Positions 6,288-50,736 of a DNA stretch of 64,000 nucleotides are shown piece after piece. How positions within the stretch are numbered: the first letter of the stretch is position 1; the number at the start of each line of letters is the position of its first letter. This DNA comes from Dolosigranulum savutiense (lineage in GTDB: Bacteria; Bacillota; Bacilli; Lactobacillales; Carnobacteriaceae_A): assembly GCF_039830095.1 (NCBI RefSeq), contig NZ_CP142435.1, forward strand, positions 992,001 to 1,056,000, given 5' to 3'. Under the pieces are notes generated by a model, which saw only the letters and a list, made by a program, of their open reading frames with translations, was not told where the DNA came from and did not search any database. The position numbers were made by a program, and so were the translations under genes.

Positions 6288-7201
6288 GTGCGCCCGGCAT
6301 GGGCGACAACTTGGTGGTGAAAGTCCACTATGAGCCTTTACAGTAGGAATTATTAGCCAAAGGCAAGGTTGTCTATCGTGAGGTGGAATCTAAAGGAAGC
6401 CAAAGGCAAACACCTGCACTGACGAACAGAAATCTCATAAAGAAGGCCGGATAGGTATGGATAAGTTTGCCAAACAAAGTGAAGTCCAATACTGTACGAA
6501 CACCGTCAGGTAAATGAGGCAGTGATACGGTATGACTGTTCAAGAAGTTGAGCATCATATTGGAGAATATTATCCATATATCAGAAAGAAGTTACTCAAT
6601 GGAACGTATCAACTACAACCAGTGAGACGAGTGGAAATTCCGAAAGGTAATGGAAAAACCCGGAAGCTGGGTATACCAGTAGCACGTGATCGAGTAATCC
6701 AAATGGCTATTAAACAGATAATTGAGCCTATAATAGATAAACACTTTTCTAATAGTAGTCATGGATTTCGACCAGGAATATTTGTGGAGATTGTGAAAGA
6801 GATCAACCAAGTGACTCAAGGTTGGATTAATTACTTTGGGTTAGGTTTTGTTAAAAGCTTCGTGAGAAGGACTGAAGAGTGGTTTCGAAGGCGACTTAGA
6901 CAGCTTATATTGAAACGTTGGAAGAAATGCTCAACCAAGATTAAGATGCTTCAGAAATATGGACTAACAGAAGATGAGGCAAAACGAATTGCCTTCTCTC
7001 GGAAAGCCTATTGGCATCTATCTCAAACATATGAAGTCAATAAGGCAATTACAACAAAGAGACTCCACAAATGGGGATTAAAATCATTAACCACCGTAGC
7101 GGAGTCTGCTTATGCAAGGTATTGAACCGCCGTATACGGATCCGTACGTACGGTGGTGTGAGAGGTCGACTAGTCAATTAATGGCTAGTCTCCTACTCGA
7201 T
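6288..7201 (+). mobile_element. Degenerate group II intron
   Basis: The 5' end GTGCGCCCGGCATGGGCGAC is a typical group II intron start. It is followed by a GC-richer structured region, a damaged maturase frame, and a 3' end with a domain V-like hairpin (about 7126-7165), a domain VI-like hairpin (GACTAGT paired with GGCTAGTC, 7168-7190) and a terminal AT at 7200-7201. Total length is about 0.9 kb against roughly 1.9 kb for a complete bacterial intron of this kind. Insertion directly after a terminator stem and a maturase without an endonuclease domain both suggest class C, but I did not fold the RNA. Confidence 0.8.
6532..7125 (+). pseudogene. Group II intron reverse transcriptase/maturase, internally deleted
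   Basis: The frame encodes the end of RT block 0/1 (VQEVEHHIGEYYPYIRKKLL), RT blocks 1-2 (RRVEIPKGNGKTRKLGIP, RVIQMAIKQIIEPI, FSNSSHGFRPG) and then jumps straight to the maturase X domain (QGWINYFG to the C-terminus). The whole palm region with the YADD catalytic pair is absent, and the N-terminal residues before DGMTV are also lost, since a stop codon lies just upstream in frame. At 197 residues it is less than half of a normal intron-encoded protein of about 420. No endonuclease domain follows. It cannot be an active reverse transcriptase; the maturase domain alone might still bind RNA. Confidence 0.85.
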
Positions 7202-49318: not shown

Positions 49319-50677
49319 TTAGAACAATAATTTGTCTGCGCCACCAAGTTTGTAATCTAGAGCAGCCATTGCTAGGACGTTCAAGTAGTGCCATGGACGG
49401 TCAAAGCGTGGTTGGAAGAAGAAGTCAGCAAGTGCTAAATCTTCTAATGTCCACTTCGCTGCAATAGCAACAGATAGTGTATCGATCGCTGTTGAGATGT
49501 CTTCTTTAGACATCAACTGTGCACCTAGAATGCGGTGATCATCTTCGTCATAGTAAATTTTCATCATCACTTTACCTGGTTTACGCATGAACTCAGGGTA
49601 TAATGGCTCTTCAACATACTTGCTAGCCACATTACCCTCATACGAATCAGCGCTTGTAGCGTTCAAGCCTGTGTTGACGAATTTGTAGTCAAAGAGTGAT
49701 AAAGCACTTGTTCCGGTCATTTCCGGTATCTTCATCTCTTTGCCCATTGCGTTCATCGCTGCGACAACTCCTTGACGACGTGCCATGGTAGCAAGAGCAA
49801 TACTTGTCTTACCTTCAGTTGGCGCGTAAGGGACGAAGGTTGCATCTCCACCAGCGTAGACATCTTTCACGCTAGTTTGCAAGTAGTCATCAGTAACGAC
49901 AAAGCCTTTGTCTGTCATCTCTAATTCATCAGCTAACCAGCCGGCATCAGGTTTGACACCCATTGATAGAACAACAGTGTCTGCTTCATGGGTTTGCTTG
50001 TCTGTTACGACAGCAGCCACTTTACCATCTTTACCTTGGAATGACTGGACGCGTTCGCCCCCGTAGAATTCAACACCATTTTCTTTGGCATGTGCTTCTA
50101 AGACATCAGTGAATTCTTTGTCCAAGTAAGTGGGTAAGAAACGCTCAGCCATATCGATTACGCGAACATCGACACCTGCTTTAGCGAAAGCTTCAACAAC
50201 TTCTAGTCCAATGTAGCCGGCACCGATAACGACCGCTTTCTTAGATGCTTTCATATCATCTAAAACTTTTTGGGTGTCTTCTGGTCCACGGAATGTATTG
50301 ACATTATCTAACTCGACCCCTTCGAATGGTGGCTTCACAGCAACACCACCTGGGCTAAGTAGTAATTTGTCGTATGACATGGTAGACTTCTCGCCGTCTA
50401 CAATAATGTCAACCGTCTTCTCATCGGCGTTCAGGCCCACTACATCACTATTACAGTGCATGTGGATGCCTTGTTCGCGGTAAGAATCTTCTGTTGCAAA
50501 GTGTAATTCATCTAAACTTTTAGAGGTCCCCTCTAAGTAAGATTGGCTCCCTCAACCCATGAACGAGGCTTTATCGCCACGCTCGAATAAATGAATTTCT
50601 GCTTCTGGTTCGTTCTTCAGGATCGTCTGTACAGCTTCGTAACCGAAGTGTGACGTTCCAACAACAACATATTTCAT
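49319..50677 (-). CDS. NADH oxidase / CoA-disulfide reductase family protein with in-frame UGA at the catalytic Cys codon
   Basis: The frame from ATG 50677 (AAGGAGG upstream) to 49319 is 452 residues, the normal length, with a single internal TGA at 50554-50552, codon 42. In Nox/Npx enzymes residue 42 is the redox-active Cys in SxLxCG. Here SFMG-UGA-GSQSYL stands at that place, and the active-site His10 (GTSHFG) is present. Everything downstream is intact: KAVVIGAGYIGLEVVEAF (NADH site), VYAGGDATFV (FAD site) and FFFQPRFDRPWHYLN. The UGA is followed at the right distance by a hairpin (50536-50520) fitting the bacterial SECIS pattern. So this is either a selenocysteine enzyme or a recent nonsense mutant. 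Residues from 73 (MHCNSDVV) form an open frame by themselves. Confidence 0.8.
50520..50536 (-). promoter_or_regulatory. SECIS-like hairpin after the in-frame UGA
   Basis: On the minus strand TTAGAGG-GGA-CCTCTAA forms a 7-bp perfect stem whose loop starts with G. The loop begins 22 bases after the UGA. Known bacterial SECIS elements have 16-37 bases between UGA and apical loop and a G in the first two loop positions. Confidence 0.55.
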
Positions 50678-50707: not shown

Positions 50708-50736
50708 ATTATAACACTGACCCCCAAAAATGTCGA
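50708..50736 (-). promoter_or_regulatory. Promoter of the NADH oxidase gene
   Basis: On the minus strand TCGACA (50731-50736), 17-base spacer, perfect TATAAT (50708-50713). Confidence 0.7.

Follow-up and report, generated by a model that had tools for sequence, protein, structure and literature searches.

A gene on the minus strand of the Dolosigranulum savutiense genome very likely encodes, judged from its sequence, a selenoprotein of the NADH peroxidase and NADH oxidase type (Npx/Nox), with an in-frame UGA at the position of the redox-active cysteine. It lies in a window of 64,000 nucleotides (contig NZ_CP142435.1, positions 992,001 to 1,056,000), and plain positions below refer to this whole analysed stretch. 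The explanation that we hold with high confidence is that a full-length FAD/NADH peroxidase or oxidase would be made with selenocysteine (Sec) in place of the catalytic Cys42, and that SelA, SelD and SelB would bring about the readthrough together with a hairpin behind the codon. The features are as follows.

49319..50677, minus strand: Npx/Nox-type flavoprotein gene, UGA codon 42 proposed as Sec (from the frame, the family, the conserved TGA and purifying selection in homologues)
50520..50536, minus strand: SECIS-like hairpin TTAGAGG-GGA-CCTCTAA, with a loop that starts 22 nt after the TGA; within the limits for bacterial SECIS elements
50552..50554, minus strand: TGA in frame at codon 42, where Npx has its catalytic Cys, and proposed to code for Sec (from the frame and the homologues)
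50675..50677, minus strand: ATG start, with an AAGGAGG ribosome-binding site upstream
50708..50736, minus strand: promoter-like site TCGACA-17-TATAAT (by consensus match only)

The frame from 50677 to 49319 runs from ATG to TAA over 452 codons with a single internal stop, the TGA at codon 42, which agrees with the sequence-only reading that the gene is complete save for this codon, with its ATG at 50677 and its AAGGAGG. The same reading spoke of a good promoter; the site upstream is indeed there and matches the consensus in 11 of 12 positions, but five sites of this class were found against 3.4 expected. The listed open reading frame, taken without readthrough, begins at 50461 and thus lacks the first 72 residues, and with them the FAD-binding segment at the N-terminus as well as His10 and position 42.

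The selenocysteine system and the conserved TGA

To our knowledge, the Lactobacillales have long been thought to make almost no selenoproteins, and the sequence-only reading had likewise held that they are not generally known for Sec. That view needs correction, since tRNA-Sec is present in 33 of 295 genomes in an even sample of the order, and Sec decoding is thus not rare there; at the same threshold it was found in 3 of 14 control genomes. The proposal had also been staked on the presence of selA, selB and selC in this genome, and tRNA-Sec, SelA, SelB and SelD all exceed their curated cut-offs. The tRNA-Sec gene (G000:C1:1106750-1106843) scores 64.5 bits against a cut-off of 47, with 11 other matches at a loose threshold all below it, and ARAGORN also calls this tRNA SeC, with the anticodon TCA. 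SelB reaches 351.9 bits (cut-off 242.25), SelA 595.7 (cut-off 267.9) and SelD 361.2 (cut-off 125), the last with one in-frame TGA just before the AKIGP segment, and the genes are ordered selD-yedF-(small ORF)-selB-selA. SelA and SelD would load tRNA-Sec, and SelB would bind the hairpin just after the UGA and bring Sec, whereupon the ribosome would read through.

A survey of TGA-containing genes in the window and in the surroundings of the tRNA and sel genes (about 40 kb) gave further candidates. GrdB (687.9 bits, cut-off 602.2), with a TGA, adjoins the sel cluster, and GrdA (260.7 bits, cut-off 130), also with a TGA, lies about 10 kb from it. A PrdB-like gene at L141:17139-17960 has an in-frame TGA (SPG-U-FMCH) and scores 152.0 bits, below the PrdB cut-off of 300; it may belong to a separate selenoprotein family. 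With SelD, GrdA, GrdB and the PrdB-like gene, all of which carry a TGA, the Npx-like gene brings the number of likely selenoprotein genes to at least five. The genome encodes, with GrdA, GrdB and a subunit of the E/G type, a glycine/sarcosine-type reductase (L039:14585-15148, L141:5079-7690), which is common in Clostridia but would not be expected in Lactobacillales. At the left end of the window, where fdrA-allGH genes had been suggested, there is an AllG/CoA-ligase-type gene at 26-1975 (PF06545, PF00549), which agrees with the suggestion, and near that end are matches to group II intron RNA at 6372-7201 (RF02001, RF00029).

Homologues were read at codon 42, as had been proposed. Sixty genomes, the own one and those of relatives, were searched by protein, and 4 of the 30 best-hit loci have TGA at this codon, the window gene included, and the other 26 have TGC or TGT. 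Both tRNA-Sec and selB exceed their cut-offs in the same 5 of the 60 genomes, including all 4 with a TGA homologue; the fifth, G045, has no TGA homologue among the matches listed and no motif in the scan of the order sample. A pattern scan of a collection of genome contigs yielded 50 stretches; 18 proved to be chance frames and were set aside. The other 32, each in a further genome record, are genuine homologues that have TGA at this codon, and they come from Enterococcus, Vagococcus, Facklamia, Gemella, Alloiococcus otitis and Atopococcus tabaci (three of the records match contigs of G001, G007 and G033, already in the 60-genome set). Every one of the 32 has tRNA-Sec, and every one has selA over its cut-off; in Alloiococcus otitis the tRNA-Sec gene lies only some 360 bases from the enzyme gene. 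In the even sample of 295 genomes the motif was found in 15, all within the 33 that have tRNA-Sec (Fisher p = 1.7e-16, with species counted as independent, which they are not). The other 18 of the 33 have no Npx motif, and other selenoproteins presumably maintain the system there. Eleven pairs of related species were chosen for a comparison downstream of the TGA; dN/dS was 0.010-0.082 in ten of them and dS was saturated in the other, and purifying selection acts on the protein encoded there.

TGA is one base away from TGC and TGT and related Cys enzymes exist, and it could be argued that a nonsense mutation or a sequencing error has hit an ordinary Cys-type gene, which would then be a pseudogene or an artefact. 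Such an accident does not agree with the same codon being TGA in 32 further records that all have tRNA-Sec, with motif carriers that all fall among the tRNA-Sec carriers, or with the low dN/dS after the TGA among homologues, and we reject it as extremely improbable. The frame that is open beyond the UGA would also fit a UGA at which the ribosome inserts some other amino acid, e.g. Trp, by readthrough or by reassignment of the codon, with no selenium involved. However, of the 76 ORFs listed for the window 43 were picked, and two of these end in TGA, followed after only 11 and 3 codons by the next stop; TGA thus still serves as a stop, and a global reassignment is rejected. The genome also has a complete Sec system, and the affected residue is the redox-active one, which leaves another amino acid at codon 42 with hardly any probability. 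Decoding as selenocysteine is the explanation that we retain.

The hairpin behind the UGA

If the UGA is decoded as Sec, a SECIS element should follow it, and the sequence-only reading had pointed to a 7-bp hairpin with a G-first loop at the expected distance. The limits for a bacterial SECIS given in the Fig. 2 legend of PMC13188914 are a loop of 3-9 nt, a stem of 4-16 bp, G in the first two loop bases, a spacing of 16-37 nt and a minimum free energy (MFE) of -7.5 or lower; some bacterial SECIS elements fall outside the model, according to the available part of the same review. The window hairpin lies within these limits (7 bp, 3-nt G-first loop, spacing 22, MFE -9.5 in the 47 bases after the TGA) and the published model thus accommodates it, but in folds of 45 or 51 bases that include the TGA the minimum-energy structure is a different one (-9.9).

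Hairpins were also scored by a fixed criterion, which demands GG in a loop of 3-5 nt, G in the first two loop bases, a score of at least 5 and a loop 14-26 nt after the codon. Among 15,539 codon positions of the window, 1.36% score 5 or more and 0.15% score 7 or more, as the window gene does. Such a hairpin is present in the window gene and in 11 of the 11 scored homologues from Gemella, Facklamia, Alloiococcus and Atopococcus, and in 0 of the 19 scored from Enterococcus and Vagococcus (L102, which is the same stretch as L087, and L074 were left out of the scan). Its place varies somewhat, with the GGA loop 17 nt after the TGA in Facklamia and Atopococcus as against 22, and one of the 11 homologues in the group of the window gene, L075 (-6.3), misses the energy limit. 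So do GrdB (-6.0) and GrdA (-4.8) of the same genome; in all five TGA genes there, 16-23 nt after the TGA, a hairpin of 5 or more pairs has a G among its first two loop bases, and the loop holds GG in 3 of the 4 other than the window gene.

A hairpin pair at columns 24-30 is A-U, U-A or G-C across species. Change on both sides was counted in one pair, which is no more than by shuffling (486 of 500 shuffles reach it); the covariation score, and likewise the proportion of cells that are paired, exceed the shuffles (2 of 500 reach each). Compared with codon shuffles the free energy has a z-score of -2.38 in the window gene, and means of -1.18 in its group (12 genes) and -0.12 in Enterococcus and Vagococcus (12 of 20). 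The Cys control gave -0.48 (16 of 26), with three Cys genes at -2.2 or below. The excess is modest, and some Cys genes, which need no SECIS, score alike.

A SECIS common to all homologues was rejected on the strict scan, with its 0 of 19 in Enterococcus and Vagococcus, and on RNAalifold, which for 19 of the 20 loci of these genera predicted 12 pairs, none with a two-sided change (L074 was left out because its locus ends early). Under the looser published limits for stem, loop and spacing, 11 of the 13 Enterococcus and Vagococcus loci that were scanned (of 20) have a hairpin of at least 4 pairs, at differing places. From the strict scan and the lack of two-sided change, we claim no SECIS for Enterococcus and Vagococcus. 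The residues under the window hairpin, GSQSYLEG, had been taken for the least conserved part of the protein, as if constrained by the RNA. This does not hold, as Cys homologues have GIQSYLEG, GAQSYLEG and GMQLYLEG and the segment is ordinary for its branch; the earlier comparison had used the branch with GIALYVGG.

Enzyme family and the exchange of Sec and Cys

Over residues 1-440 the window protein aligns with NADH peroxidases of known structure from Enterococcus, best with 1joa (378.7 bits, 3.3e-112). TGA42 falls on the cysteine of 1joa (SFLSCG), i.e. on the redox-active Cys42 as the sequence-only reading had it, and the partner His10 is retained as was also claimed. The QxYLEG segment is kept, and the residue that aligns with Arg303 of Npx is likewise Arg; Cys42, His10 and Arg303 have catalytic roles in Npx. 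Three Pfam families exceed their cut-offs, PF07992 and PF00070 (FAD/NADH) and PF02852 (dimerisation). The gene had earlier been named an NADH oxidase, but in the structure alignment its sequence has NADH peroxidases as the nearer relatives. All 25 NCBIfam models among the matches listed stay below their cut-offs, which makes the name NADH oxidase insecure and NADH peroxidase-like the better label. Since codon 42 is TGA and the catalytic Cys42 by which Npx is recognised is absent, we regard the gene as an Npx-like Sec variant and not as Npx in the strict sense.

What the enzyme would do with selenium is another matter. That the selenoprotein acts mainly as a water-forming NADH oxidase, or as a CoA-disulfide or persulfide reductase, is a choice of substrate compatible with Sec at position 42. 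The best NCBIfam models point that way, namely the H2O-forming NADH oxidase NF046103 at the top (364.8 bits, cut-off 600) and a CoA-disulfide reductase (300.7 bits, cut-off 458), both below their cut-offs, as is TIGR03385, CoA-disulfide reductase (295.6 bits, cut-off 578.8). The nearest solved structures are on the other hand NADH peroxidases, with the best NADH oxidase at 328.2 bits against 378.7, and the Arg at the place of Arg303 and the QxYLE segment are retained. We therefore find these other activities possible but rather unlikely, and a peroxidase would be our first choice for the Sec42 enzyme. Npx works by a cycle of Cys-SH and Cys-SOH, and in the peroxidase Sec42 would replace this pair. 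The selenolate would be oxidised by peroxide (or O2) to a selenenic form, which FADH2, recharged by NADH, would reduce back with the assistance of His10. Sec insertion, the function of the hairpin, this cycle and the preferred substrate are all what we infer from the data above.

A tree was made of 52 proteins, 30 with Sec and 22 with Cys, and alignment columns 34-52 were excluded. It took 28 of the 32 TGA loci (L074, L082 and L088 were cut by locus ends, and for L098 the same gene was taken from L025) and 22 of the 26 Cys loci (L032, L033, L036 and L038 were not used). The tree needs four changes between Sec and Cys, gains or losses, and all four are forced by supported branches. All Sec genes as a single clade are rejected (p-AU 1e-7); the 13 Sec rows from outside Enterococcus and Vagococcus as one clade gave a p-AU of 0.013, a result weakened by the long branches of Alloiococcus and Atopococcus. 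The window protein groups with Gemella (support 100/98) and then with Facklamia (100/99), even though its own family seems to include Alloiococcus and Atopococcus, which makes it likely, as far as sequences can tell, that the Npx-like Sec gene has been transferred horizontally.

The residue before position 42 is Gly in 30 of 30 Sec rows and Ser in 22 of 22 Cys rows. The Sec rows were partly selected for Gly41 by the search pattern, the first four having come from the protein search without such selection. With any residue allowed at codon 41, a looser pattern matched 22 stretches in 21 of the 295 genomes, the same 15 genes and 7 others, and none of the 22 has Ser before the TGA (the 7 extra were judged from the matched letters, unaligned). 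That the link between Gly41 and Sec is a mere artefact of a pattern that demands Gly was thus rejected; either the chemistry or the mRNA context before the UGA could be its cause. We consider it fairly probable that a widespread and overlooked Sec-based branch of the NADH peroxidases exists in Lactobacillales and Gemella, and that Sec and Cys have replaced each other in it four or more times, always with a switch between Gly and Ser at the preceding residue.

Meaning and known relatives

A flavoenzyme that handles peroxide or oxygen would thus be among the users of Sec in an order where 33 of 295 genomes have tRNA-Sec, and the carrier genera include human- and animal-associated species. If true, the repeated exchange is a natural experiment on what a flavoenzyme requires to work with selenium in place of sulfur. 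The advantage of Sec, e.g. resistance to over-oxidation, can be tested on matched pairs because Cys forms are close on the tree. A gene caller that stops at UGA would call an Npx-like Sec gene broken, or start it late. The Enterococcus raffinosus homologue in a plasmid collection (L162:5991-7349) is annotated as one CDS through the TGA (WP_261321796.1, FAD-dependent oxidoreductase), in a table that does not display whether a CDS is flagged as a pseudogene, and annotation pipelines thus seem to read through. It lies on a replicon of about 1 Mb filed as a plasmid, and by overall similarity a stretch of this kind is also present in four more records of E. raffinosus, 1.0-1.2 Mb in size.

Among the literature matches listed, from a search that covered few subscription journals and no supplements, none deals with a Sec-containing NADH peroxidase from this order. 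For Enterococcus durans, the part of PMC8894896 available lists selA and selB in the genome and names other proteins as its selenoproteins. Sec in the same superfamily has been published for Geobacter metallireducens, in a protein named NADH oxidase in PMC1794560 and later listed as FAD-dependent oxidoreductase/CoA-disulfide reductase (PMC9312934, PMC13188914, both in part), and an excerpt of PMC2398784 has one Sec sequence of the superfamily from an ocean survey. The Npx-like group with UG[STA]Q in Lactobacillales and Gemella is, by its sequence, a new variant.

The closest known system is the Npx of Enterococcus (1joa, 1npx), with which the window protein shares the alignment over residues 1-440, His10, the catalytic position 42 and the QxYLEG segment, and from which it differs in having a Sec codon for Cys42 and Gly for Ser41. 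The nearest Cys-type homologues, which are found in relatives, with matches also on plasmids of Listeria and Enterococcus casseliflavus, are about 53-56% identical over the full length; the 22 Cys rows compared have SCG where the Sec proteins have GUG, a comparison at codon 42 in which the plasmid matches took no part. The Geobacter protein is a member of the same superfamily of flavoproteins and resembles the window protein in that Sec, at a position likely to be homologous going by published descriptions and not by alignment, is followed by Gly. It differs in its motif, which is UGxP in the available part of the newest review (PMC13188914), in its TIGR03385 family and in its host among the Deltaproteobacteria, as against UG[STA]Q in Npx-like proteins of Lactobacillales and Gemella.
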